A stretch of 14,347 bases of DNA from Rhodoferax sp. (GTDB taxonomy: Bacteria > Pseudomonadota > Gammaproteobacteria > Burkholderiales > Burkholderiaceae_C): positions 1 to 14,347 of the forward strand of contig JAQSDS010000421.1 of assembly GCA_029946045.1 (NCBI GenBank). Reading direction: 5' to 3'. Shown here piece after piece: positions 2,128-14,321 of the stretch. Both the position numbers and the translations under genes were made by a program. Positions within the stretch are counted from its first letter, which is position 1; each line of letters begins with the position of its first letter. The notes beneath the pieces are model-generated. The model made no database searches, was not told the origin of the DNA, and saw nothing but the letters and a program-made list of their open reading frames with translations.

Positions 2128-3174
2128 TTACAGCGCTGCCACCACCGACACGCCGTGGTCGGCCAGCGTCAAGCCGACCTCATTGCCAATCGCCAGCACA
2201 TCGGTCAGATCAGGCGACACGACAAAAATCGGGCCCAGCGCGGTGTCAAAGGTGTACTCAAAAAAGCTGCCCAGGTAAGCCAGCTTGCGCAGGCTGGCCG
2301 CCAAACCAGTGCCGTCGCGGTGAATATGCCAGGCTTCCGGGCGCACCGCCACCTTGACCGGCCCGACCGCCACGGCCTGGCGTGAGCTAATGGACAGCGG
2401 CCCCAGCTGCACCACGCCCGCCGCGTCGGCAACGCCCGGGAACAACATGGCCTCGCCCATGAAACCGGCCACGAATTCACTGCCCGGGCGCTCGTACATG
2501 TCTTGCGGTGTGCCACGCTGCGCAATCAGGCCCTCGTTCATGACGATGATCTGGTCGCTCACGGCCAGCGCCTCGCTTTGGTCGTGGGTGACATAGGCCA
2601 CGGTCAGGTGCAGGCGCTGCTGCAGGCTGCGAATTTCCTCGCGCATGTCGCGGCGCAGACGCGCGTCAAGGTTGCTCAGGGGTTCGTCAAACAGCAGCAC
2701 GCCAGGCTCCAGCACCAAGGCCCGCGCCAGCGCGACCCGCTGTTGCTGTCCCCCCGAGAGTTCACTGGGCAAGCGCTCGTCGTAATGGACCAGGCCCACG
2801 TTGCCCAGGGTCTCAACAGCGCGCCTTGCGGCCTCGGTCTTTTCGATACCCGACATCTTCAGGCCGTACATGACGTTTTCCAGCACGTTCATGTGTGGGA
2901 ACAGCGCATAGCTCTGAAACATCATGCTGACATTGCGGTCGGCCGGACCCAGCGTGGTCACGTCTTTGCCGTCCATGAGGATCTGGCCGCTGGTGGGCGT
3001 TTCCAGCCCGGCAATCATGCGCAGCACCGTGGTTTTGCCACAGCCCGAGGGCCCCAGGATGGTGGTGAGCGAGCCTTTTTCAATCTCGAAATCGACCCCC
3101 TGAATGACGAGCGGAGCGCTGGTGTCGATACCATAGCGCTTGGTGATATTTTTGAATTCAACGCCGTGGTTCAT
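2128..3174 (-). CDS. ABC importer ATP-binding subunit (AfuC/FbpC/PotA-like)
   Basis: Cytoplasmic ATPase that powers the importer encoded by the two genes upstream of it on the same strand. The 348 residues contain a full set of nucleotide-binding motifs: Walker A GPSGCGKTT (41-49), Q-loop MMFQ (Q87), signature LSGGQQQR (139-146), Walker B VLLFDEP (159-165), D-loop SNLD (167-170) and H-loop histidine H197. The C-terminal part (about 240-348) looks like a TOBE_2 domain, with the usual VAVRPEAW stretch. This is typical of the ferric/polyamine/phosphonate/sugar-phosphate importer branch, so the ATPase alone does not set the substrate. The start is 17 nt after the permease stop, with only a weak AAGAG-type ribosome binding site, so translation may be coupled. 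It is the last gene of the transporter operon. Confidence 0.93.
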   Translation of the reverse strand: MNHGVEFKNITKRYGIDTSAPLVIQGVDFEIEKGSLTTILGPSGCGKTTVLRMIAGLETPTSGQILMDGKDVTTLGPADRNVSMMFQSYALFPHMNVLENVMYGLKMSGIEKTEAARRAVETLGNVGLVHYDERLPSELSGGQQQRVALARALVLEPGVLLFDEPLSNLDARLRRDMREEIRSLQQRLHLTVAYVTHDQSEALAVSDQIIVMNEGLIAQRGTPQDMYERPGSEFVAGFMGEAMLFPGVADAAGVVQLGPLSISSRQAVAVGPVKVAVRPEAWHIHRDGTGLAASLRKLAYLGSFFEYTFDTALGPIFVVSPDLTDVLAIGNEVGLTLADHGVSVVAAL

Positions 3175-3191
3175 GGTTTTCTCTTGTGTGT

Positions 3192-5402
3192 TCAGTGCGC
3201 CGCCAGGGGCTTGATGACGATGCCGGTCTTGCGCCTCCCCAGTTTGCGCTCACCGACCAGAAACTGGATCAGCGCAATCGACAGGGACATCAGGATGATC
3301 AGCACCGTGCAATAGGCCAGCGCCACGCCATAGTCGCCATTGCCCACCCGCCCGATGATGTAGGTGGTGGCCAGCTCGTTCTCGGCGGTCACCAGAAAGA
3401 TCACCGCGCTCACCGTGGTCATGGCGCGCACAAAGCTGTACACCAGCGCCGCCACCAGCGCGGGCTTGAGCAGCGGCAGCACCACATATCGCAGCGTCTG
3501 GAAAGTGGAGGCGCGCAGCATCAGCGAGGCCTCGTCGAGCGACTTGTCGAGCTGTTTGAAGGCCGCCGTGCCAGCGCGCACGCCCACCGGCAAATTGCGG
3601 AACATGAAGCACAGCACGATGATCAGGCCGGTGCCCGTGAGTTCCACCGGCGGCACGTTGAACGCCAGGATGTAGCTCACCCCGAGCACCGTGCCGGGAA
3701 TGGCAAAAGCCAGCAGCGCGATGAACTCGAACCAGCCCTGGCCGCGAAATTCGGTGCGCGCCAGCAAGTAAGCGATCAGCAAACCTACGGTGGCCGTCAT
3801 GGGCGCCGCCAGGCCGGCCAGTTTGACCGTGGTGAACAGCGAGTTCCAGGCGGTGCCCGCCCACACCATGCCGAACTCACCCCACTCCAGCCCGAACGCG
3901 GTCCGGAAGTGCGCCAGGGTCAGCGTGTAGTCACGGCCCCAGGTTTGCACAAAACCGCCGGCAAAGGCAAACAGGTAAACAATCACGGTGAAGGCCAGCC
4001 ACGGGTAGACCACAAAATTGAGCACCCGGCGCACGCCGTCGGGCAGCGCCATCGGAATGCCCGCGTCGCCCTTGCCGCTCACCGTGGTGTAGTTCTGCTT
4101 GCCCAGCAAGGCGCGCTGCAGGGCAAAGACAAGCAGCGCAAACAGCGTCAGGATCCAGGCCAGCGAGGCCGCCCGCCCCTGGTCGTATTGGGCCCCGACA
4201 ATGGCAAAGAAGATGTCGGTGGACAGCACTGAATACTGCCCGCCCACCACCACCGGGTTGCCGAAGTCGGCAATACTTTCGATGAATCCCACCAGAAAGG
4301 CGTTGGCCAGACCTGGCTTGAGCAACGGCAGGGTGACGGTAAAAAACGTCTGGCTGCGGCTCGCGCGCAAGGTCTGCGCGGCTTCTTCCATGCTGGGGGC
4401 CACGCCCTGCACCACGCCACGCATGATCATGAAGGCAATCGGCGTGAACGCAAACAACTGGGCGATCCAGATGCCAAACAGGCCGTAGAACCAGCGCGTG
4501 GGCTGGATGCCAAACGCGTATTCAAGAAACTGGTTCACCACGCCGGCGCGGCCAAACAGCAGGATCAGGCCCAGACCCACCACGAACGGCGGCGTGATGA
4601 TGGGCAGCAGGGCCACCACGCGCAGGGGCGTCTGCACGCGCGGCCCGGCGCTGCGCTCGGCCAGCAGCGCCATCATGGTGCCCATGATCACGGTGCCAGT
4701 GGCAGTGAGAAGCGCCAGGAACAAGGTGTTCCAGGCCACGCCGCAGCGCACGCCACCCGCCAGACAATTCAGGCCCCAGACACGTTCATGGCCAATACGC
4801 TCAAAAATGGCTGACACCGCCCAGTGTCCCTCTTCATTCAAGAAAGCCCCATACAAGGCTTTGGTGACCGGGAACGCAATGAACAGCAGCAGCAGCACCG
4901 AGCAACTCACCACCGCCGAAGCGATGAACAGGTCGCCCTTGAAATAACCCCGCCGCGCCACGCCGAAAGCGGTGATCATGACCAGCGCCAGCAGGGCCAT
5001 GAAGGCGCCGATACCGATGCCAAACTGGTTGACCTCCAACTCACCAAACTGAGCGTTCAAGACGTCAAACGACCAGCCTTTGGCACCCACCATGAAGCCG
5101 CTCATCAGCAAGCCCAAAAACCCCAGCAGGCCTCCCGCCAACAGCCAGGTGCCTTGCGATTTCCCCGGCGCAACGATCAGGCCGATGGCGGCAAGGCCCA
5201 GCCCGGCGAGGCCCAAAGCCAGCCAGACCCGTCCATAAAGGAGCGTCTGAAGTAAACCATTGGCGGTCTCGGTGCCGCCAAAGATCTGTGGCAGCACGCT
5301 GTACCAGGCGGTGTCCTGAATGGCATACCAGGGCAGTACCAGATAGGCCAACAGACCCGTGATGAGCCAGAGGCGTATGGCCAGATTGGGGTTTTTGTTC
5401 AT
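3192..5402 (-). CDS. ABC importer permease, two fused transmembrane domains (AfuB/FbpB-like)
   Basis: Inner-membrane channel subunit. One 736-residue chain carries two BPD_transp_1 domains, each ending in a cytoplasmic EAA loop that docks on the ATPase. Loop 1 is around residues 337-364 (EEAAQTLRASR then LPLLKPG), and loop 2 around 622-647 (DEASLMLRAST then LPLLKP). Residues 1 to about 190 add an N-terminal region with four or five extra hydrophobic segments. The frame is open upstream to an ATG at 5489, but those 29 extra residues (LLWERRPRRDGP...) are a translation of a REP-like repeat. The ATG at 5402, giving MNKNPNLAIRLW..., is therefore preferred. No Shine-Dalgarno lies directly before it; a perfect-armed palindrome does. 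The fused architecture matches AfuB and FbpB-type permeases. Substrate is inferred from the binding protein and from zwf nearby. Confidence 0.9.
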   Translation of the reverse strand: MNKNPNLAIRLWLITGLLAYLVLPWYAIQDTAWYSVLPQIFGGTETANGLLQTLLYGRVWLALGLAGLGLAAIGLIVAPGKSQGTWLLAGGLLGFLGLLMSGFMVGAKGWSFDVLNAQFGELEVNQFGIGIGAFMALLALVMITAFGVARRGYFKGDLFIASAVVSCSVLLLLFIAFPVTKALYGAFLNEEGHWAVSAIFERIGHERVWGLNCLAGGVRCGVAWNTLFLALLTATGTVIMGTMMALLAERSAGPRVQTPLRVVALLPIITPPFVVGLGLILLFGRAGVVNQFLEYAFGIQPTRWFYGLFGIWIAQLFAFTPIAFMIMRGVVQGVAPSMEEAAQTLRASRSQTFFTVTLPLLKPGLANAFLVGFIESIADFGNPVVVGGQYSVLSTDIFFAIVGAQYDQGRAASLAWILTLFALLVFALQRALLGKQNYTTVSGKGDAGIPMALPDGVRRVLNFVVYPWLAFTVIVYLFAFAGGFVQTWGRDYTLTLAHFRTAFGLEWGEFGMVWAGTAWNSLFTTVKLAGLAAPMTATVGLLIAYLLARTEFRGQGWFEFIALLAFAIPGTVLGVSYILAFNVPPVELTGTGLIIVLCFMFRNLPVGVRAGTAAFKQLDKSLDEASLMLRASTFQTLRYVVLPLLKPALVAALVYSFVRAMTTVSAVIFLVTAENELATTYIIGRVGNGDYGVALAYCTVLIILMSLSIALIQFLVGERKLGRRKTGIVIKPLAAH

Positions 5403-5404
5403 GG

Positions 5405-5422
5405 GCAATAACTTGTTATTGC
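5405..5422. promoter_or_regulatory. 18-bp inverted repeat abutting the permease start codon
   Basis: GCAATAACTTGTTATTGC has perfect 8-bp arms around a TT centre and ends 2 nt before the permease ATG (minus strand). It is AT-rich, unlike the GC-rich surroundings. It could be an operator or an mRNA hairpin at the translation start. The symmetry is seen directly; the function is inferred. Confidence 0.5.
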
Positions 5423-5428
5423 GACCTA

Positions 5429-5462
5429 GGGGGCCATCGCGGCGAGGGCGCCGCTCCCACAG
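5429..5462 (-). repeat. REP-like element, copy 1
   Basis: Read on the minus strand, this begins with GTGGGAG (5454-5460 on plus), followed by a GC-rich hairpin with arms GCGGCG/CGCCGC. A 26-bp core (5437-5462) is identical to 9037-9062. A short head carrying GGAG followed by a palindrome is typical of bacterial REP sequences that are spread by RAYT transposases; no RAYT gene is in the window. It lies in the 102-bp gap between binding protein and permease genes. Confidence 0.8.
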
Positions 5463-5471
5463 AAGCTGTCG

Positions 5472-5477
5472 CTCCTT
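5472..5477 (-). promoter_or_regulatory. Orphan Shine-Dalgarno (AAGGAG) upstream of the REP element
   Basis: A perfect AAGGAG (minus strand) follows the binding-protein stop by about 27 nt, but it is about 69 nt from the preferred permease ATG. The REP element and the palindrome fill the space between. This looks like the original permease ribosome binding site, separated from its start by REP insertion. Alternatively it serves an unusual start codon inside the repeat. Confidence 0.4.
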
Positions 5478-5504
5478 TCCATGAACCATTCCGATAGATG
5501 GAAA

Positions 5505-6515
5505 TCACCGTGGCAAAGAGTTGACTTCTTTTTCCCACTTGGCGATCAGGCGCTTGCGTTCGCTTGATGCGCCGTACTTAGCATAGTCGTAGTTGATGAA
5601 CTTGATTTTCTTGAAGTCGGGCACGTTCTTGTCAACCTTGGCCGCCTTGTTGGAAGGCACCTGGAACTGCTTGGCCGCAGCGGCCATCTCTTGTGCCGAG
5701 GGTGTCAGCGCCCATTCATAGAACTTCTTGGCGGCTTCCAGGTTGCGCGCGCCCTTGATGATGCTCATGGAGCCAATTTCAGCGCCAGTGCCATCGGTTG
5801 GCGTGATGGCCTCGACCGGGAACCCGTTGAGTTTCTCACCTGGCGCGTCATGCACAAAGCTGATCGAGACCGTGGTTTCGCCACGGGCTGCCGCCTTGAT
5901 CGGGCCGGTGCCACTGCGGGTGTACTGGCTGATGTTCTTGTGCAGCTTCTTCATGTACTCAAACGCCTGGTCTTCGCCCATCATCTGCACCAGCGTGGCC
6001 ACCATGGTGTAGGCGGTGCCACTGGAAGCCGGATTGGCCACCTGAATTTCGCCCTTGAGGGCGGGGTTCAACAGGTCGTTCCAGGTCTTTGGAATCGGGA
6101 TTTTTTTCTTGGCCAACAACTCGGTGTTGTAGCCAAAGCCCAGCGGACCCGAATAAATGCCCACGGTACGGAACTTGGACTGCTCGGCCTGCTGCTGCGC
6201 CCAGCCCTGCAACTGCGGCAAGGCCGGTGACTTGTATTCAAGCGACAGGCCCTGCTCGGCCGCCTGCAGGTGCGGGTCCCCGGTGCCGCCAAACCAGATG
6301 TCGGTCTTGGGGTTGTCCTTTTCAGCGATCAACTGGGCCAGCGCCTCGCCCGAACCCTTCATGGAAATATTGATCTTGGTGCCGGTGGTGCGCGCATAGA
6401 CCGTACCGATCATGTTGCACCACTCAGCCTGCACCGAACAAATCACGTTGACGGTTTGCGCCTGAGCCAAACCTGCGGTCAAACCCAACAAGGACACCAG
6501 CAACAACTTCTTCAT
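5505..6515 (-). CDS. ABC importer periplasmic substrate-binding protein, AfuA-like (candidate sugar-phosphate binder)
   Basis: Periplasmic receptor of the importer, 336 residues. It has a Sec signal peptide (MKKLLLVSLLGLTAGLAQAQ, likely cleaved after AQA) and no lipobox. Family landmarks are a Cys pair C26/C33 near the mature N-terminus, DIWFGGTGDPHLQAAEQG (72-89), PASSGTAYT (162-170), FVHDAPGEKLNGFPVE (220-235) and DGTGAEIGSMSIIKGA (241-256). General annotation would call this COG1840 'Fe3+ ABC transporter' protein. However, no tandem Tyr-Tyr, as found in FbpA, is present. H222, D223 and E246 instead match, at identical spacing, the residues I recall as ligands of glucose-6-phosphate in Actinobacillus AfuA (H205, D206, E229). 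AGGAG at 6521-6525 sets the start. It is the first gene of the operon, divergent from zwf. The family call is firm; the ligand is inferred. Confidence 0.88.
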   Translation of the reverse strand: MKKLLLVSLLGLTAGLAQAQTVNVICSVQAEWCNMIGTVYARTTGTKINISMKGSGEALAQLIAEKDNPKTDIWFGGTGDPHLQAAEQGLSLEYKSPALPQLQGWAQQQAEQSKFRTVGIYSGPLGFGYNTELLAKKKIPIPKTWNDLLNPALKGEIQVANPASSGTAYTMVATLVQMMGEDQAFEYMKKLHKNISQYTRSGTGPIKAAARGETTVSISFVHDAPGEKLNGFPVEAITPTDGTGAEIGSMSIIKGARNLEAAKKFYEWALTPSAQEMAAAAKQFQVPSNKAAKVDKNVPDFKKIKFINYDYAKYGASSERKRLIAKWEKEVNSLPR

Positions 6516-6520
6516 GACGA

Positions 6521-6525
6521 CTCCT
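6521..6525 (-). promoter_or_regulatory. Ribosome binding site of the binding-protein gene
   Basis: AGGAG on the minus strand lies 5 nt before the ATG at 6515. It fixes that start and is the best ribosome binding site in the transporter operon. Confidence 0.75.
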
Positions 6526-6530
6526 GAGAT

Positions 6531-6553
6531 GCCCCGAAAAACCTATTCGGGAC
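6531..6553 (-). promoter_or_regulatory. Leader hairpin in front of the binding-protein ribosome binding site
   Basis: Plus-strand CCCGAA (6533-6538) pairs with TTCGGG (6546-6551) across a 7-nt loop. In the minus-strand RNA the stem extends to 8 pairs with one G-U (6531-6538 with 6546-6553). It ends 5 nt upstream of the AGGAG, so it could modulate translation or mRNA stability, or be a protein-binding operator in DNA. No poly-U follows, so it does not look like a terminator. Confidence 0.45.
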
Positions 6554-6641
6554 GATTGATAAAGCAGCTGGCAGCTTACCCCTTTTTGCCTCGACCCCGA
6601 TCTGGGGAAAACGCTAGGGTGACGTGCCTTCAACACGGCGG

Positions 6642-6657
6642 TTACCAAATTTTGTAA
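6642..6657. promoter_or_regulatory. Candidate operator palindrome, possible HexR site
   Basis: TTACCAAATTTTGTAA is symmetric except for one pair (TTAC.AAA / TTT.GTAA). It overlaps the proposed zwf -35 box, which suits a repressor. TTAC/GTAA are the half-sites seen in the gammaproteobacterial HexR consensus (TGTAAT...ATTACA), though in the opposite order here. The assignment to HexR is inferred from the adjacent hexR gene. Confidence 0.4.
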
Positions 6658-6680
6658 AAATCGTGAAACTAAGTTACATT
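6652..6680 (+). promoter_or_regulatory. Predicted sigma-70 promoter of zwf
   Basis: TTGTAA (6652-6657, 4/6 to TTGACA) and TACATT (6675-6680, 4/6 to TATAAT) are separated by exactly 17 bp. Transcription would start near 6687, about 41 nt before the zwf ATG. The match is moderate and unproven. Confidence 0.4.
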
Positions 6681-6727
6681 ACGAATTCTTTTTGACCCAT
6701 CCCTTTCATTCCAAGCTGATTTTTCAC

Positions 6728-8182
6728 ATGAGTTTTGACCTTGTTCTCTTTGGCGGCACCGGCGACCTGTCCTGGCGCAAACTGATGCCCGCGCTGTTTC
6801 AGGCCTTCAAACACGGCACCCTGCCCGACGGGGCGCGCATCATCGGCGTGGGCCGCGACGAGCTCAGCGACGAGCGTTACCGCGCCTTGATCCTCAGCCG
6901 CTTTGACCAGGTGGATCTGGCCAAACGCCCGAGCCCCGAGGAGTTCGAACGTTTTTCAGGCCTGCTCGAATTCGTCAGCATGGACCTGTCCAAGCCCGAG
7001 CATTACGCCTACCTGGGCGACAAGCTGGCACAGCGCCAGGCCGACACCGTGGTGATGTACCTGGCCACCGCGCCGACACTGTTCACCACCATCGTCGAGC
7101 AACTGGCGGCAGCCGGCCTGAACACGCCGCAGACCCGCGTGGTGCTGGAAAAACCGCTGGGCCACGACCTGGCCAGCAACCGCGCCATCAACCACAGCGT
7201 AGGCCAGGTGTTCAGCGAAAAACAGGTGTTTCGCATTGACCACTACCTGGGCAAGCCAGCCGTGCAAAACCTGTTTGCGCTGCGTTTTGGCAACGCCCTG
7301 TTTGAGCCGCTGTGGCGGCGTGAGCACATTGCCAACATTCAAATCACCATCGCCGAAGAACTGGGCGTGGAAAAGCGTGGTGCCTTTTACGAGACCACCG
7401 GCGCACTGCGCGACATGGTGCAAAACCACGCGCTGCAACTGCTGTGCGCGATTGGCATGGAGCCACCCATCAACTCCCACGCCGATGCCATTCGCGACGA
7501 AAAACTCAAGGTACTGCGTTCGCTGAAACCCTGGACGCCTGAGACCCTGGCGCAGGATGTGATTCGCGGCCAGTACGGTGCGGGTGCCATTGGCGGTACG
7601 GCGGTCGCGGCCTACCGCGACGAACTGGGCGTGAACCCGGCCAGCCAGACTGAGACCTTTGTCGCGCTGCGCACCGAGATTTCCAACTGGCGCTGGGCCG
7701 GCGTACCGTTTTACATTCGCACCGGCAAACGCCTGGCCGGGCGCGATGCGCGCATTGTGGTCAATTTCAGGCCGACACCGCACGCGATTTTCAACTCGCA
7801 AATCGGTATGGCCAACCGGCTGGTGATCAACCTGCAGCCCAAGGACGGGCTGGAGCTGCACCTGCTGGCCCAAGGCCAGGACAACCGCAAGACCTCGCAC
7901 ACGCTGGCGCCGGTGCAACTCGACCTGGACTTTGACAAGCGTTTTGGCGGCGAGCGCGTGGGCGCCTACGAGCGCTTGTTGCTCGATGTGATCGACGGCC
8001 GCCTGAACCTGTTTGTGCGCAGCGACGAGCAGGAAGAAGCCTGGCGCTGGGTCGAACCCATGCTGACCCACTGGCAGGCCGACACCCAGGGCCCGCGCCC
8101 CTATGCCGCAGGCACCTGGGGCCCCAGTGCCACCAGCGCCATGATTGCCCGCGACGGCTTTTGCTGGGCCGAAGAATGCTAG
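6728..8182 (+). CDS. zwf: Glucose-6-phosphate 1-dehydrogenase
   Basis: Cytoplasmic enzyme that oxidises glucose 6-phosphate to 6-phosphogluconolactone with NAD(P)+, opening the pentose phosphate and Entner-Doudoroff routes. The 484 residues are a normal length. The nucleotide-binding loop is FGGTGDLSWRKLMPAL (8-23), in place of the common GASGDLA.RKL. EKPLGHDL (141-148), the substrate-binding signature RIDHYLGKP (169-177) and the catalytic histidine in MVQNHALQ (H234) are all present. The frame is open back to a TTG at 6692. The ATG at 6728 is chosen because MSFDLVLFGGTGD is the usual start of the family; neither start has a good Shine-Dalgarno. The stop overlaps hexR by 7 bp. pgl, edd and eda are not in the window. 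Probably controlled by HexR. Confidence 0.96.
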   Translation: MSFDLVLFGGTGDLSWRKLMPALFQAFKHGTLPDGARIIGVGRDELSDERYRALILSRFDQVDLAKRPSPEEFERFSGLLEFVSMDLSKPEHYAYLGDKLAQRQADTVVMYLATAPTLFTTIVEQLAAAGLNTPQTRVVLEKPLGHDLASNRAINHSVGQVFSEKQVFRIDHYLGKPAVQNLFALRFGNALFEPLWRREHIANIQITIAEELGVEKRGAFYETTGALRDMVQNHALQLLCAIGMEPPINSHADAIRDEKLKVLRSLKPWTPETLAQDVIRGQYGAGAIGGTAVAAYRDELGVNPASQTETFVALRTEISNWRWAGVPFYIRTGKRLAGRDARIVVNFRPTPHAIFNSQIGMANRLVINLQPKDGLELHLLAQGQDNRKTSHTLAPVQLDLDFDKRFGGERVGAYERLLLDVIDGRLNLFVRSDEQEEAWRWVEPMLTHWQADTQGPRPYAAGTWGPSATSAMIARDGFCWAEEC

Positions 8183-9024
8183 ACCGCATCAAAGCCTCGC
8201 TGCCCTCGCTGGCCCCAGCAGAACAACGCGTGGCCAAGTTGGTGCTGAGCGACCCGCGCAGTTTTGCCCTGCTGCCGGTGAGCGAACTGGCCGACCGCGC
8301 CCATGTGAGCAAGCCCACGGTGGTGCGCTTTTGCCGCAGCGTGGGCTATGACGGCCTGAGCGACTTCAAGCGCAAGCTGGCGGGCAGCGTGAGCGAGGGC
8401 GTGCCATTTATCCACCGCAGTGTCGATGTCGACGACAAGACCAGCGACATCATGGTCAAGGTGATTGACAACACTGTCGCGGCCTTTTTGAAATACCGCA
8501 ACGACGCCTCAAGCAGCGCCATCGACAAGGCGGTCGGCGCCCTGCTCAAGGCCTACCATGCCGGTCGCCGCATCGAATTTTTCGGGGTCGGCAACTCGGG
8601 CGTGGTGGCACAGGACGCGCAGCACAAATTTTTCCGGCTCGGCATCAACGGTGTGGCCTACAGTGACGGCCACATGCAGGTCATGAGTGCCTCGCTGCTG
8701 CAGCCCGGCGACTGTGTGCTGGTGATCTCCAACTCGGGGCGCACGCGCGACCTGATGGACGCCTGCGACATTGCGCGCAAAAACGGTGCCACCACCATCG
8801 TTATCACTGCCAGTGGCTCGCCACTGGCCTCGGCAGGCGACATCCACGTGGCCGCCGACCACCCTGAAGGCTATGACCGCTACAGCCCCATGGTGTCACG
8901 GCTGCTGCACCTGATGATCATCGACATCCTGGCGACCTGCATGGCGCTGCGCATCGGCAGTGACAAGCTGCAACCGCTGCTGCGCGAAATGAAAAACAAC
9001 CTGCGCAGCAAGCGCTACGCCTGA
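8176..9024 (+). CDS. hexR: RpiR-family transcriptional regulator HexR
   Basis: DNA-binding regulator of central sugar catabolism. In Pseudomonas and Shewanella, HexR controls zwf/edd genes and releases DNA when it binds KDPG. The 282 residues comprise an N-terminal HTH_6 domain (about 1-75, recognition region VSKPTVVRFCRSVGYDG at 44-60) and a SIS sugar-phosphate domain (about 120-260). The SIS domain contains FFGVGNSGVVAQDAQHKFFRLG (135-156) and VISNSGRT (183-190). S141 and S185 fall within one position of Ser140 and Ser184, which I recall as KDPG contacts in P. putida HexR. The ATG at 8176 overlaps the zwf stop, which implies translational coupling; a TTG at 8161 is open but adds only five residues. 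The zwf-then-hexR order differs from the divergent hexR/zwf of pseudomonads. Confidence 0.92.
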   Translation: MLDRIKASLPSLAPAEQRVAKLVLSDPRSFALLPVSELADRAHVSKPTVVRFCRSVGYDGLSDFKRKLAGSVSEGVPFIHRSVDVDDKTSDIMVKVIDNTVAAFLKYRNDASSSAIDKAVGALLKAYHAGRRIEFFGVGNSGVVAQDAQHKFFRLGINGVAYSDGHMQVMSASLLQPGDCVLVISNSGRTRDLMDACDIARKNGATTIVITASGSPLASAGDIHVAADHPEGYDRYSPMVSRLLHLMIIDILATCMALRIGSDKLQPLLREMKNNLRSKRYA

Positions 9025-9165: not shown

Positions 9166-10089
9166 ATGAGCAAGCTCAAACAACTCGAAACCTTTGTCGC
9201 GGTGGCCACGCGCGGCGGCCTGACGGCTGCGGCCAAGGCCGAGGGCGTGGCGCCGGCCATCATTGGGCGGCGCCTGGATGCACTGGAAGAACGACTCGGG
9301 GTCAAGCTGCTGGTGCGTACCACCCGGCGCGTCAGCCTGACGCATGAGGGCAGTGCCTTTCTGGAAGACTGCCAGCGCCTGCTGGCCGACCTGGCCAATG
9401 CCGAGGCCAGCGTCTCGGCGGGCGGCATCAAAGCCGACGGCCATTTGAGCCTGACGGCGCCGGCAGGGTTTGGCCGCAGACACGTGGCCCCCCTGGTACC
9501 CCATTTTCGGGAATTGCACCCGGAGGTGGCCATTTCCTTGAACCTGAGCGACCGCGTGGTGGACCTGGCAGGGGAAGGCTTTGACTGTGCCGTGCGCGTG
9601 GGCGAGATGCCCGACTCGTCGCTGGTGAGCGTGCGCCTGGCCGACAACCGCCGCCTGTGCGTGGCCACACCCGGCTACCTCAAGCGCCATGGCACACCGC
9701 AACACCCGCATGACCTGACCCGCTTTGACTGCCTGACCCTGTCCAGCGAAGCCTCGCAGAACCGGGGCTGGGCCTTTTCTGTGCCACAAAAAAGTGGCCT
9801 GGAGGTGGTTCATCTCAAACCCGGTGGCCCGTTGAGTTGCTCCGATGGCGATGTGTTGTTTGACTGGTGCCTGGCGGGCTATGGCATTGCCTGGCGCAGC
9901 ACCTGGGAGGTGCAGGCCGAAATTGCTTCGGGCGCGCTGATTGCGGTGCTGGAAGACTTTGCGGCCCCGCCCAACGGTATTTATGCCGTGTTTCCGCAGC
10001 GCAAGCATCTGCCGCTGAGGGTGCGGCTGTGGGTGGACTACCTGAAAGAACAGTACGCCCGACCCGGCTTCTGGCTGTCGCATGCGTGA
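9166..10089 (+). CDS. LysR-family transcriptional regulator
   Basis: Cytoplasmic DNA-binding regulator of 307 residues, a normal LTTR length. The N-terminal winged HTH spans about 1-60 (LKQLETFVAVATRGGLTAAAKAEGVAPAIIGRRLDALEERLGVKLL, with the usual LxxF and R-LE-LGxxLL pattern). A linker helix leads to a two-lobed effector domain (about 90-300), where GFDCAVRVGEMPDSSLVSVRLA is typical of the DmlR/AaeR-like branch. The effector is unknown. The ATG at 9166 is the only in-frame start before a TAA at 9145. AAGGAG at 9136-9141 is too far away to serve it, so initiation is weak or unusual. Its stop overlaps the deacetylase ATG by 8 bp, so it leads a three-gene unit and may regulate envelope-modification genes. 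LysR proteins more often sit divergent from their targets. Confidence 0.93.
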   Translation: MSKLKQLETFVAVATRGGLTAAAKAEGVAPAIIGRRLDALEERLGVKLLVRTTRRVSLTHEGSAFLEDCQRLLADLANAEASVSAGGIKADGHLSLTAPAGFGRRHVAPLVPHFRELHPEVAISLNLSDRVVDLAGEGFDCAVRVGEMPDSSLVSVRLADNRRLCVATPGYLKRHGTPQHPHDLTRFDCLTLSSEASQNRGWAFSVPQKSGLEVVHLKPGGPLSCSDGDVLFDWCLAGYGIAWRSTWEVQAEIASGALIAVLEDFAAPPNGIYAVFPQRKHLPLRVRLWVDYLKEQYARPGFWLSHA

Positions 10090-10936
10090 ACCCGGACCGG
10101 TCAGTTCAAAAGCTGTCATCGTTTGCGCCGACGACTTTGCCATTCACGCCAGCGCCTCCATGGGCATCGCCAAACTGGCAAGGATGGGACGCCTCAGCGC
10201 CACCAGTGCCATGGTGCTGTCACCGCGCTGGCCCCAGGATGCAGCGCTGTTGCAAGAACTGCGTGGTCAGCTGGACGTCGGCTTGCATCTGGACTGGACC
10301 AGTGACTTTGCCATGGCCACCGGTCACGGCCTGCCACTGGCGGGCGCGATGCGCCGCGCGCTGCTGGGCGGATTCGATCGACCCCAGACGCATGCAGTGA
10401 TTGAGCGTCAACTTGATCTGTTCGAGCAACATTGGCAGGGCCCGCCCGACTTTGTGGACGGACACCAGCATGTGCAGCAATTTGCGGGCATCCGCGAAGC
10501 TTTGGTCGCGGTGCTGGTGCGTCGTTACGGCGCCTTGGCTGCCAAACCTTACCTGCGCATATCACGCGCGCCGCCTGGCTTGGCAGACCTGAAGAGCCGG
10601 GTCATTGGCTGGATGGGCGCCCATGCCCTGGCCTCCCTCGCCGAGGCTGGCCATGTGCCCAGGGCCGGAGGTCTTGTTGGCATCTATGACTTTGGCGGTG
10701 GACCACAGCGTTACGCGGACCTGATGACACGCTGGCTGGCACAGGCACCCGCAGGGTCCATCCTGATGTGTCACCCGGCGCAGGCGGCCGAGCCCGGCGA
10801 CACCATTGGCATCGCCCGCGCGCAGGAATTTTCGTACCTGGCCAGCCCTGACTTTGCCGCCGCCCTACAGCAGGCGCAGGTGCACGTGGTGCGCGGCTGT
10901 GAGGTGCTTGCGCCGCTAAAATCCGGCGATGCTTAA
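10082..10936 (+). CDS. ChbG/YdjC-family deacetylase, NaxD-like
   Basis: Metal-dependent carbohydrate deacetylase of 284 residues. In Francisella and Bordetella, NaxD of this superfamily removes the acetyl group from undecaprenyl-phosphate-N-acetylhexosamine before the amino sugar is added to lipid A. Visible family motifs are VCADDFAIH (14-22, metal-ligand Asp), VGLHLDWTS (66-74, H69), DFVDGHQHVQQF (123-134, H128/H130) and, near the end, SILMCHPAQAAEPGD. There is no signal peptide or TM segment, so action at the cytoplasmic face is likely. The start overlaps the LysR stop by 8 bp and the end overlaps the ArnT-like gene by 8 bp. The alternatives in the same superfamily are ChbG (chitooligosaccharide) and HpnK (hopanoid). 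The ArnT and GT2 neighbours favour the lipid A role, which is inferred. Confidence 0.87.
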   Translation: MREPGPVSSKAVIVCADDFAIHASASMGIAKLARMGRLSATSAMVLSPRWPQDAALLQELRGQLDVGLHLDWTSDFAMATGHGLPLAGAMRRALLGGFDRPQTHAVIERQLDLFEQHWQGPPDFVDGHQHVQQFAGIREALVAVLVRRYGALAAKPYLRISRAPPGLADLKSRVIGWMGAHALASLAEAGHVPRAGGLVGIYDFGGGPQRYADLMTRWLAQAPAGSILMCHPAQAAEPGDTIGIARAQEFSYLASPDFAAALQQAQVHVVRGCEVLAPLKSGDA

Positions 10937-12515
10937 GACCCTGACCGAACGACAAAAATCCTGGCTGATCCTCATCAGCTTATGGCTGGTGACGCTGATT
11001 CTGGCCACCCTCAGACCCATTGCGGTTCCCGACGAGGGCCGGTATGGCGAAGTGGGCCGCTGGATGCTGGTCAGCGGCGACTGGCTGACCCCGCGCTTGA
11101 ACGGCATTCCTTTCTTCCATAAGCCACCCCTGCTGTATTGGCTGGAGGCCATCAGTCTGGCAAGTTTTGGCGTCAACGAATTTGCCCTGCGGCTGGTGCC
11201 TGCCCTGCATGCGGGTCTGATGCTGTTGGCGCTGTACCTGGCGGCGCGCACCATCAGCACGGAGACCATTGCACGCCGTGCCAGCGTCATGTTGGGTACC
11301 AGCCTGACGCTTCTGGTGGGGGGACAGTACATCAACCACGACATGATGGTGGCCACCTGGATCGGGCTGGCCATCTGGTGTTTTGCCTTTGCCTTCATGG
11401 CGTGCGACAAGCCGCATCGGTGGCTGGCGCGACTGGGGTTTGTGGCCTGTGCCCTGGGCATGCTGAGCAAAGGCTTGATTGGCATTGCGCTGCCGGGCCT
11501 GGTGATTCTGGTCTGGCTGATCTGGACGCGGCAGTTGAAAAAAGTGTTGTACCTGCCCTGGCTGAGTGGTTTGCTGCTGTTTGCCCTGATTGCGCTGCCC
11601 TGGTTTGTGCTGGCGCAGCAGACCTACCCCGAGTTTTTCAATTACATGTTTGTCGGCCAGCAGTTCAATCGCTACACCGCAGCCGTCTACAACAACCCGC
11701 AACCCTGGTGGTTTTACCTGCTGGCGCTGGCCTTGTTGTTTTTTCCCTGGCTATTTTTTGCACTGGGTCAGCTGCGCCGGGTCACCGCCACGACATTGGC
11801 CCGCGATGGGGTGCTGGCCGAACCCTGGTGGAAGTTGTGCTGGGTTTGGCTGCTGGCCATTCTGGTCTTTTTCTCGGTGCCCAATTCAAAGTTGGTGGGC
11901 TACATCCTGCCAGTGGTGCCACCTCTGGCGCTGTTGGCGGCACTGGGCTGGGAACGCGTGATGGCGCACCGCGCATCGGAGCGAAAGGTGTTCATCACTG
12001 TGATCGTGATCAACATCGGCATCGCGCTGGGCATTGTGCTGAACGTGGGCCATGTGACCCGTAAAACGCGCACGCAGGATCTGGCGCAGGTCTTTGCCTG
12101 TGCCGCCAACCCTGCCGATACCCTGTACGTCGCCGACGGTTATCCCTATGATTTGCCCTTTTATGCGCAGACGCGCAAGGCGATGGTGGTGTTGGGCGAC
12201 TGGCCTGAGTTACGCAAGCGGGTAGGTGACGGTTGGCAGCGCGAGCTGTTTGAAGGCGCTGATTTTGATGCCCAAGCCGGGCAAGCCTTGCAATCCGAGG
12301 CGGTGCTTGCCAAAGTGGCGCAAACGCCGGGGCATTGGTTCGTGGCGCGAAAGAGCAACCGCATGACCGCAGGTTTGCCAGGCTGGACGCTGTTTTACCA
12401 GGGTGCCGGTTGGGATTTGTACCGCTCTGGCGGCGTCGCCAGTGACGGATCAGCGGCGAAAGGCCCAGAAGCGGCTCAGCACAAAGGTTTGCCCGGCTGC
12501 AAACAACAGCGCTAA
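10929..12515 (+). CDS. ArnT-like (GT83/PMT superfamily) lipid glycosyltransferase
   Basis: Polytopic inner-membrane enzyme expected to move a sugar from undecaprenyl phosphate to lipid A on the periplasmic face, like ArnT, FlmK or LgmB. It has 528 residues with about 11-13 hydrophobic helices up to about residue 380, then a soluble C-terminal part. The catalytic first-loop motif VPDEGRYGEV (D35, E36) and PFFHKPPLLYW (K65) are present. Their 30-residue spacing matches what I recall for D55/K85 of Cupriavidus ArnT. Other landmarks are SKGLIGIALPG, ALPWFVLAQQTYPEFF and SVPNSKLVGYILPVVPPLA. The sugar is probably a hexosamine if the overlapping deacetylase acts before it, rather than L-Ara4N, since no arnA/B genes are visible. 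The last 27 or so residues (after LYRSG) are low-complexity and antisense to the end of gtrA, so they are probably a non-essential tail. Confidence 0.88.
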   Translation: MLKTLTERQKSWLILISLWLVTLILATLRPIAVPDEGRYGEVGRWMLVSGDWLTPRLNGIPFFHKPPLLYWLEAISLASFGVNEFALRLVPALHAGLMLLALYLAARTISTETIARRASVMLGTSLTLLVGGQYINHDMMVATWIGLAIWCFAFAFMACDKPHRWLARLGFVACALGMLSKGLIGIALPGLVILVWLIWTRQLKKVLYLPWLSGLLLFALIALPWFVLAQQTYPEFFNYMFVGQQFNRYTAAVYNNPQPWWFYLLALALLFFPWLFFALGQLRRVTATTLARDGVLAEPWWKLCWVWLLAILVFFSVPNSKLVGYILPVVPPLALLAALGWERVMAHRASERKVFITVIVINIGIALGIVLNVGHVTRKTRTQDLAQVFACAANPADTLYVADGYPYDLPFYAQTRKAMVVLGDWPELRKRVGDGWQRELFEGADFDAQAGQALQSEAVLAKVAQTPGHWFVARKSNRMTAGLPGWTLFYQGAGWDLYRSGGVASDGSAAKGPEAAQHKGLPGCKQQR

Positions 12516-12818
12516 AAAGAGCGCCAGCAGGCTGGGCAGTTCCAGGCTGCGCAGCAGCAACACAAACACCCCTTCGTTGCTGGCAAAGCCGGCCAATGCG
12601 GTGATGCCGAAACGCTTGAGGCTGGTGCCCACGCTGGTGCTGGCATCTTTGAAACTCAGCCGCCGGTGCCCGGCAAAACTGACAAAAAACGCAATGACAA
12701 AACCCAAGGCGTTAGCCAATTCGGGCCACATGTGCGCCTGCACCAAAGCAAACACAGCCATGTGGGTGGCAGCAGCAGCACCGCCCACGGCCAGAAACCA
12801 GAAGGTGGACGCACTCAC
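12450..12818 (-). CDS. GtrA-like small membrane protein (putative polyprenyl-phosphate-sugar flippase)
   Basis: A 122-residue inner-membrane protein with four predicted TM helices (about 5-25, 33-52, 70-88, 95-115). The spacing and the closing SRFWAFRR are typical of the GtrA/DPMS-flippase family, as is GHRRLSFKD in the middle loop. GtrA proteins are thought to flip undecaprenyl-phosphate-linked sugars made by a partner GT2. The start is a GTG at 12818 overlapping the GT2 stop by 4 bp (GTGA), so the pair is translationally coupled. The 3' end overlaps the convergent ArnT-like gene by 66 bp. In this locus it would carry the lipid-linked sugar to the periplasmic side for the ArnT-like enzyme (inferred). 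Confidence 0.87.
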   Translation of the reverse strand: MSASTFWFLAVGGAAAATHMAVFALVQAHMWPELANALGFVIAFFVSFAGHRRLSFKDASTSVGTSLKRFGITALAGFASNEGVFVLLLRSLELPSLLALFLALLFAAGQTFVLSRFWAFRR

Positions 12819-13846
12819 ACGTGTGTGGGCCGGGATGACTCAGATGCGCTTGGGGCTGGCTGGCCGAGTGCCGCTTGCAGTGGCAGGCCCTGGCCCAGAC
12901 GCTGGCTTACCAGGTAGTTGGGGCGCTGCTTGACTTCTTCATAGATGCGGCCCACATACTCGGCCAAAACGCCAATCGACAGCAGCTGGATGCCACTGAA
13001 AAACATCATGCCCACCACAATGGTGGCGTAGCCGGGCACATCACTGCCAAAAATGAAGTGTTCAGCCGTCACGAACAGTCCGTAGCCAAGCGCAATCACC
13101 GAAAGCGTGAAGCCAAGGAGGGTCAACGCCCGCAACGGCGCAATGGAAAACGCCAGAATACCGGTCAAGGCCAAAGACAGGGAACCCATCAAACCAAAAT
13201 TGCTTTTGCCGTCAGCGCGGGGTAAGGGCTGGTAATCGATGGCGGTGCTATTGAATCCAACCCAGGCATACAGCCCCTTCATAAACCGGTTGCGTTCACT
13301 CAGGCGTTTCAGGGCCTCCACCACTTGGCGATCCATCAAACGAAAATCACCGGCATTGGCCGGAATCTTCACCCGGCTGCCTAAATTGACAAATTTGTAA
13401 AACCAGGCGGTCAGCCTGATCTGCAGGTTTGACTGGTCGTCGCGACTCCGACGCACGGCATACACCACGTCGGAGCCTTCGCGCCATTTGGTAAGCATCT
13501 CGGGCAGCAACGAGGCCGGGTGCTGGCCATCACCATCCATCAGGATCACCACGTCGCCCTGCGCCGCATCAATACCCGCCGTCAACGCCGGTTCCTTGCC
13601 AAAATTGCGCGACAGCTTGAGGTACATCACCTGCGGAAACTGCACGCACAAAGCATGCATGACCGCCATCGTGTCATCGCGGCTACCGTCATCCACGATG
13701 ACCAGCTCAACCTGCGGGCTCAAACGCGCCAGAGCCGTCAAAATGGCAGGCACCAGGGTGCTCAGGTTGCGTGCTTCGTTGTACGCAGGAATCACACAGG
13801 AAATGGAGGGAGTCAGGGTCTGGCGATTCAACATAGTCTGCATCAT
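12815..13846 (-). CDS. GT2 polyprenyl-phosphate glycosyltransferase (DPM1/GtrB/ArnC-like)
   Basis: Transfers a sugar from a nucleotide donor to undecaprenyl phosphate at the cytoplasmic face of the inner membrane. Of 343 residues, a GT-A domain takes up about 1-205: SCVIPAYNEARN (16-27), VDDGS (51-55), metal-binding MDGDGQHP (103-110) and GDFRLMDR (166-173). Two C-terminal TM helices follow (about 215-250 and 258-290), with YVGRIYEEVKQRPNY at the end of the conserved part. About 25 further residues form a Pro/Ser-rich tail. Start choice is uncertain: ATGs at 13846, 13843 and 13834 all lack a Shine-Dalgarno. The gene follows within 9 bp of a strong terminator and is coupled to the GtrA gene. 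Relatives FlmF2 and LgmA use N-acetylhexosamine donors for lipid A decoration; the donor here is inferred. Confidence 0.9.
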   Translation of the reverse strand: MMQTMLNRQTLTPSISCVIPAYNEARNLSTLVPAILTALARLSPQVELVIVDDGSRDDTMAVMHALCVQFPQVMYLKLSRNFGKEPALTAGIDAAQGDVVILMDGDGQHPASLLPEMLTKWREGSDVVYAVRRSRDDQSNLQIRLTAWFYKFVNLGSRVKIPANAGDFRLMDRQVVEALKRLSERNRFMKGLYAWVGFNSTAIDYQPLPRADGKSNFGLMGSLSLALTGILAFSIAPLRALTLLGFTLSVIALGYGLFVTAEHFIFGSDVPGYATIVVGMMFFSGIQLLSIGVLAEYVGRIYEEVKQRPNYLVSQRLGQGLPLQAALGQPAPSASESSRPTHV

Positions 13847-13910: not shown

Positions 13911-14321
13911 TCAGGCTTTGTTGCTCAGGCAAGTCTTCATGAAGGCTTTGCGCTCGTCGCCCTTGAGCTTTTTGTCACCCGCCTCCTTGTTGCAGCTTGC
14001 CATTTTGTTCTGCTGCGTTGTCTTGCCACCGGCCTCGGCTGCTACGGCCGGTTTGGCGCTCAGGCAAGACTTCATGAAGGCCTTGCGCTCATCACCCTTT
14101 TTGTCGGCGGCTTCCTTGTTGCAGCTTGCCATCTTGTTCTGCTGGGCGCCTTTTGCGTCAGGGGCCGCAGGAGTAGCCGGGGTAGCCGGTGTCGCGGCTG
14201 ATGCCGCCATGGCTGGTTTGGCCACTGCGGCCGACTTAGCGGGTGCAGCAGCGTCAGCGGCATAAGCAGCGCCAAAAGACATCGACAGGCCCAGACTCAA
14301 TAGTGTTAAAAATTTCTTCAC
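13911..14321 (-). CDS. Secreted PsiF-repeat protein
   Basis: A 136-residue exported protein. A signal peptide (MKKFLTLLSLGLSMSFGAAYA, cleaved after AYA) is followed by an Ala/Pro-rich low-complexity linker (about 23-57). Two PsiF repeats follow, at about 60-88 and 102-134. Each reads QQNKMASCNKEA...KGDERKAFMK.CLS and holds two cysteines that may pair. Escherichia coli PsiF is phosphate-starvation-inducible, but its molecular role is unknown, and I cannot see a Pho box because the window ends 26 bp upstream. The start is GTG at 14321, supported by AAGGA at 14328-14332. The two repeats are near-identical at DNA level, which suggests a recent internal duplication. The gene is separated from the GT2 gene by a terminator. 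Confidence 0.88.
   Translation of the reverse strand: MKKFLTLLSLGLSMSFGAAYAADAAAPAKSAAVAKPAMAASAATPATPATPAAPDAKGAQQNKMASCNKEAADKKGDERKAFMKSCLSAKPAVAAEAGGKTTQQNKMASCNKEAGDKKLKGDERKAFMKTCLSNKA
13923..14109 (-). repeat. Direct repeat encoding the two PsiF units
   Basis: GCTCAGGCAAG.CTTCATGAAGG recurs at about 13923 and 14057, with matching downstream stretches (TTGTTGCAGCTTGCCAT.TTGTTCTGCTG at about 13987 and 14117). The offset is 130-134 bp. The units differ by a few substitutions and a short indel (KKLKGDER versus KKGDER). Confidence 0.7.

Follow-up and report, generated by a model that had tools for sequence, protein, structure and literature searches.

What does an ATP-binding cassette (ABC) importer bring into the cell when its genes lie back to back with zwf, the gene for glucose-6-phosphate dehydrogenase, and a neighbouring hexR-like regulator gene, and from which side of the membrane would such an importer be controlled? 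The question is raised by a window of 14,347 nucleotides (the whole stretch of DNA analysed), which is one contig (C421) of a 3.3-Mb, 87% complete draft genome of Rhodoferax sp. The initial annotation had described genes for a binding protein, a fused permease and an ATPase facing zwf-hexR across 212 bp, and every one of them was found at its place and on its strand (Table 1). From sequence comparison, we consider it likely that these genes encode an AfuABC-type importer for cyclic hexose and heptose 6(7)-phosphates built into a HexR-controlled pentose-phosphate/Entner-Doudoroff module, with sedoheptulose-7-phosphate (S7P) probably a ligand alongside glucose-6-phosphate (G6P) and fructose-6-phosphate (F6P). 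The reading of the importer rests on residues for which mutant data exist and on a genomic context in which each ligand has its counterpart. The transporter type is already known; what is new is its coupling to zwf, tal and pgi. No published description of the coupling of the importer with zwf was found, and an earlier listing of the genes in a HexR regulon is possible.

Among solved structures, the binding protein is closest to 8x1a and AfuA (4r72-4r75), followed by P5PA, and is identical to AfuA (4r72) at 147 of 307 positions (48%). PMC4546632 and PMC8427247 name 19 pocket residues of AfuA, 17 of which are identical in the window protein, including H205, D206 and E229 (here H222, D223 and E246) and the phosphate residues S37 and T150 (here S55 and T167). 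In AfuA, alanine in place of H205, D206 or E229 abolishes G6P binding in each case, and S37 and T150 hold the phosphate (PMC4546632; PMC8427247). The same H205, D206 and E229 are the trait by which the discoverers of AfuABC defined its homologues, 121 of which Sit and colleagues already counted in alpha- and betaproteobacteria (PMC4546632). AfuA binds F6P, G6P and S7P with Kd values of 8, 23 and 57 nM, respectively, and mannose-6-phosphate with 960 nM; glucose-1-phosphate, ribose-5-phosphate, fructose-1,6-bisphosphate and phosphate are reported as not bound (PMC4546632). The pocket residues and the identity to AfuA thus bear out the AfuABC-like assignment made in the initial annotation. A survey of 124 rows of binding proteins at 60% identity or higher, in which a number of loci were entered twice, shows E229 without exception, H205 in 120 rows and D206 in 118, Glu taking the place of D206 in 4; in 7 rows of remoter paralogues, E229 is present in 5, H205 in 3 and D206 in 1. 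A tree of 101 binding proteins did not cleanly separate the neighbourhood classes and was not used.

Table 1. Features of the importer-zwf-hexR locus, in window coordinates.
Feature	Position	Strand	Basis or remark
AfuC-like ABC ATPase	2128-3174	-	Pfam ABC_tran + TOBE_2
AfuB-like fused permease	3192-5402 (open reading frame to 5489)	-	two BPD_transp_1 domains (Pfam)
AfuA-like periplasmic binding protein, 336 aa	5505-6515	-	PDB 4r72 E 3.4e-86, 8x1a E 7.2e-87
Divergent control region common to importer and zwf, 212 bp	6516-6727	.	
HexR-like operator (putative)	6664-6678	.	TGTAACTTAGTTTCA in importer-ward reading
zwf, glucose-6-phosphate dehydrogenase	6728-8182	+	TIGR00871 542.9 bits, cut-off 400.6
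hexR-like RpiR-family regulator	8176-9024 (open reading frame listed from 8161)	+	HTH_6 + SIS; overlaps zwf end

The pairing with zwf is not confined to the source genome and recurs widely among relatives. Scanning genomes with an alignment of 8 sequences yielded 336 confirmed relatives, the nearest named ones being mostly Rhodoferax, and the best 80 loci were kept for counts. In 58 of these best 80 loci, zwf is directly divergent from the binding-protein gene across a gap of <500 bp; it lies 1.3-7.5 kb off in 4, none is found upstream in 13, and a contig end cuts the remaining 5. The 58 loci comprise 30 from Variovorax, 7 from Rhodoferax, 4 from Ramlibacter, 2 from Caenimonas, 1 from Polaromonas and 14 without genus assignment, so many from one genus that they are not 58 independent events. 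The arrangement is far beyond chance. A second survey, of 200 genomes of the family and overlapping in genomes with the first scan, listed 42 genomes (the source genome included) in which the binding protein reaches 63% identity or more. There, zwf is directly divergent in 20, as established by comparing coordinates by hand with a zwf search; among 20 of the remaining 22 genomes, which were fetched, zwf is divergent in 2 more, and hexR, tal, pgi or zwf lies close by in 9. Moreover, divergence of the binding protein is correlated with that of Zwf across 56 loci (Mantel r 0.83, against at most 0.31 in 500 permutations), which suggests that the two have long been inherited together.

Some relatives depart from this layout in their own ways. 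In the nearest named relative, Rhodoferax S03.Bin061 (L024:1244-2458), the permease and ATPase residues 1-285 are missing and the ATPase tail directly follows the binding protein, which is a deletion or an assembly collapse. Tandem binding proteins precede the permease at L026, L027, L035, L038 and L045, the extra copy being 66-69% identical to that of the window. On the side of zwf away from the importer, a Variovorax locus (L047:432-7382) carries genes for an M20 peptidase and an Opp/Dpp-type ABC importer.

The genes behind the importer in relatives, delimited with a codon-score gene picker, tie it to two further enzymes. At a Variovorax locus, the two genes behind the transporter encode transaldolase and phosphoglucose isomerase (Pfam). 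Across the 56 of the best 80 loci with at least 5.5 kb of sequence behind the ATPase match, pgi is found no more than 6 kb behind the ATPase in 47 and tal no more than 5 kb behind it in 41, and the matched ends of ATPase and tal are just 32-73 bp apart in 18 of the best 80 loci. The zwf coupling on which the initial annotation was built is found in relatives often with tal and pgi as well, and the layout in many of them reads hexR-zwf <-> afuABC-tal-pgi. Other genomes of the family show the layout without the importer: in all 20 that were picked by hand from the top of the zwf match list for a good zwf and no such binding protein, zwf is divergent from tal-pgi, with a gap of <500 bp in 18 and a lipocalin-like match in between in 2. 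Within the Rhodoferax genus, 10 genomes have no binding protein at 60% identity or above; G001, which has no pgi match, was left out, and in the 9 regions viewed zwf faces tal-pgi or pgi in 7, while one has exbB-exbD-tonB-like genes in between and one has tal-pgi on a contig without zwf. The usual arrangement thus has hexR-zwf opposite tal-pgi, the place of the importer being at the head of the tal-pgi operon. At one locus (L143:2700-5300), exbB-exbD-exbD-tonB-like genes, identified by eye, lie between zwf and tal, after a HexR-like box, at the usual place of the importer. F6P, G6P and S7P, the ligands of AfuA, are the substrates of Pgi, Zwf and Tal, respectively; the continuation of the operon into tal and pgi in relatives hence widens the likely substrates from G6P to G6P, F6P and S7P.

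The regulator has an N-terminal HTH_6 and a C-terminal SIS domain (Pfam). Between the start codons of zwf and the importer lies a palindromic TGTAAT-type box that agrees at 12 of 15 positions with the consensus TGTAATWWWATTACA and stands out as a conserved block amid an otherwise divergent alignment of the shared regions of hexR-bearing relatives. This box is the one exact match to TGWAACTNAGTTWCA in the 3.3-Mb draft genome, and 0.03 chance matches with up to 2 mismatches would be expected in the window; the sole place in the genome with 1 mismatch (C15:4457) was rejected as an apparently unrelated protein-coding stretch, judged from sequence alone. At least 12 of 15 positions of TGTAATWWWATTACA are reached in 22 of 29 regions with hexR (or with hexR cut off), in 2.8% of shuffles and in none of 30 regions without hexR. 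A motif was also trained away from the importer, on 21 boxes between zwf and tal/pgi of importer-less genomes and 6 boxes before edd. Twenty-nine regions had been offered to this training, from which 4 without a usable gap <500 bp, 2 hexR-bearing ones at 8/15 and 2 without hexR were left out (in one of the last two, a contig end may cut hexR). The trained motif scores at least 8 bits in 26 of 26 zwf-importer regions with hexR, the window included (median 25.9), and matches in 3 of 3 regions with hexR cut off and in 0 of 30 regions without hexR; shuffles have a median of 2.2, with 9% at 8 bits or more. A box likewise immediately precedes edd at all 6 loci of relatives that were inspected. All 15 genomes searched that have no hexR at the locus, 13 of which belong to the 30, give no HexR match above 35% identity anywhere, and in 5 of 5 hexR-bearing genomes the best match is 84-90% identical. 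The relatedness of the loci makes all these motif and hexR counts less independent than they look. As far as sequence can tell, they agree with the link to HexR that had been suggested at the outset: HexR control of zwf is likely, and that of the importer, carried in the source genome by one shared box, is probable. A Pho box was considered for the shared region and rejected, there being no match in that region and one weak match, at chance level, elsewhere in the window. No terminator was found by scanning the shared region.

We infer from these elements a route in which a sugar phosphate would be captured by the periplasmic binding protein and imported, without modification, by the fused permease and ATPase, and Zwf, Pgi and Tal would use it directly. 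Imported G6P would pass through Zwf and Edd to 2-keto-3-deoxy-6-phosphogluconate (KDPG), the HexR effector in Pseudomonas (PMC5489143), and KDPG would then relieve zwf, edd and probably the importer of repression by HexR. Uptake that feeds Zwf without a kinase step, as the initial annotation had it, follows only if the predicted ligand is right. Of 24 genomes of the genus, 23 have a match for pgi, 19 for edd and 4 for a PF02685 glucokinase. ROK proteins, which may include some sugar kinases, occur in 19 of the 24; the source genome has pgi and two ROK matches. The scarcity of glucokinases fits an importer of phosphorylated sugars and does not prove a need for one. As proof of such a need for G6P import it was rejected, ROK proteins being common and three genomes (G012, G017 and G018) having both glucokinase and importer. 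A broader picture is possible, though we lean slightly against it: an old, lineage-wide Comamonadaceae module in which three sugar phosphates of central metabolism would be imported for exactly the three adjacent enzymes and induction would come from inside, through KDPG and HexR, with the importer, zwf and edd rising together and no outside sensor.

Several findings weigh against the proposed importer and its control, and are best read beside the alternatives that draw on them. In the pocket, two residues differ from AfuA (Gln at T11, as in P5PA, and Thr at I186), and Y228, the neighbour of E229, is Ala; the Gln and the Ala occur in 124 of 124 rows. Such changes in or by the pocket would suit another phosphorylated ligand, for example 6-phosphogluconate, pyridoxal 5-phosphate (PLP) or 2-aminoethylphosphonate (2-AEP), as would the fact that P5PA, an AfuA paralogue of 54% identity, binds PLP and not G6P (PMC8427247), and a distant NCBIfam similarity to 2-AEP-binding proteins. 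However, P5PA has alanine at the D206 and E229 positions (PMC8427247), at which the window protein has Asp and Glu, and relatives have zwf, tal and pgi next to the importer, which makes a different ligand improbable in our judgement. For 2-AEP, moreover, scores fall well below the PhnS2/T2/U2 equivalog cut-offs (209/393 bits for the binding protein; 344/458 and 267/593 bits), and no phosphonate enzyme occurs among the window proteins scanned. Ferric iron, the cargo named in some database entries of relatives, is hardly credible, although the binding protein is remotely similar to iron-binding proteins of the FbpA type (E 8e-8 to 1e-4) and PDB entries 8x1a and 4r72 carry iron names. FbpA-type proteins typically have two adjacent tyrosines, and no YY occurs in the 336-aa binding protein, which keeps the phosphate and sugar residues and is closest to AfuA, a protein shown not to be an iron transporter (PMC4546632). 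The best NCBIfam matches of the ATPase (ferric, 2-AEP and UgpC models) all stay under their cut-offs as well, and neither the iron nor the 2-AEP reading is supported.

The remaining contrary points concern coupling and regulation. In the second survey, 9 of the 42 importer genomes have no zwf, hexR, tal or pgi link in the stretch fetched, 2 of the 42 falling outside the comparison. Neither edd nor a PF02685 glucokinase was found in the 87% complete source genome. The regulator scores 252.7 bits with the NCBIfam HexR model PRK11302, under its cut-off of 296, and the gene is for this reason called HexR-like. Eighteen of the 30 hexR-less regions reach 11/15 of TGTAATWWWATTACA through a different near-palindrome, and no sigma-70-like promoter was found by scanning the shared region. 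HexR might control zwf-hexR alone here, with the importer transcribed from a separate promoter, either constitutive or under some other regulation, and placed beside zwf through inherited gene order. This would agree with the single box of the window, 49 bp before the zwf ATG versus 148 bp before that of the importer, and with Variovorax, which mostly keeps the gene order without hexR or this box, so that HexR is not essential to the importer-zwf coupling. It would also agree with the relocation of tal-pgi in the source genome to another contig (C79), where no HexR-like box was found by the moved genes. Against it stand the position of the box between both start codons of a 212-bp region and the second box directly before the importer in many hexR-bearing relatives (none such in the window), as well as L037 (= L171), L172 and L189, which keep hexR divergent from the importer where zwf is not there. 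We regard control of zwf-hexR alone as unlikely and retain the HexR-coupled sugar-phosphate importer as the preferred reading.

Other regulatory settings occur among relatives. Some have an adjacent two-component system in place of HexR, and others keep the gene order with neither. An OmpR-type response regulator and a histidine kinase lie by the binding protein at L042 (= L173), L072, L177, L178 and L179, loci without zwf, tal or pgi, which form a second regulatory class; of the 9 unlinked importer loci, 4 have a response regulator and a histidine kinase beside the importer. The near-palindrome TGTACTAAAGCTACG occurs in the zwf-importer gap of many hexR-less Variovorax loci, for example L055 and L068.

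Within the window, the permease and ATPase genes form a single run with the binding-protein gene, and a convergent RND pump gene comes next after the ATPase gene. For the permease, the probable start codon is the ATG at 5402 (736 aa), as suggested by the same length being picked in several relatives; zwf probably begins with the ATG at 6728, and hexR probably with the ATG at 8176, inside the open reading frame 8161-9024. Further along, positions 10082-13846 hold YdjC-like, PMT-type glycosyltransferase, GtrA-like and family-2 glycosyltransferase genes, with a probable role in modifying glycans of the cell surface, and positions 13911-14321 encode a protein with two PsiF repeats, a name that recalls phosphate starvation.

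Work on AfuABC has so far concerned its role in the nutrition of gut and lung pathogens, and the same kind of importer is here joined to pentose-phosphate genes of environmental Rhodoferax, Variovorax, Polaromonas, Ramlibacter and Caenimonas. If the proposal is true, extracellular sugar phosphates would be routine food, an ordinary carbon source, in host-free environments, a transporter easily mistaken for an iron importer would gain a function, and the importer would be under internal rather than external sensing. Three measured AfuA ligands set against three neighbouring enzymes make the prediction sharp and cheap to test.

The system resembles AfuABC of Actinobacillus pleuropneumoniae and Citrobacter rodentium in being a three-part ABC importer with the five mutagenised ligand residues kept (PMC4546632), and differs from AfuA by T11Q, I186T and Y228A. 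Its setting is different too, since the locus of C. rodentium and enterohaemorrhagic Escherichia coli lies near a fucose-sensing two-component system (PMC4546632) and the present one in a hexR-zwf/tal-pgi context with a HexR-type box. With P5PA, the B6-phosphate importer protein of Pasteurellaceae, it shares the fold family, the phosphate-holding residues and Gln at the T11 position; P5PA is described as lacking the Asp and Glu that sugar binding requires (PMC8427247), both of which are present in the window protein. As in the HexR regulons of Pseudomonas (PMC5489143) and other Proteobacteria (PMC5343134), an RpiR-type regulator stands beside zwf, with boxes before zwf and edd; the co-regulated uptake in Pseudomonas is for glucose (PMC5489143), whereas the importer coupled here is predicted to carry sugar phosphates. 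Finally, like UhpABCT of E. coli, as presented in PMC4546632, the importer is predicted to take up external hexose phosphates, but Uhp is an antiporter induced via a periplasmic sugar-phosphate sensor (PMC4546632), whereas uptake here would be ATP-driven and apparently tied to a sensor of an internal metabolite.

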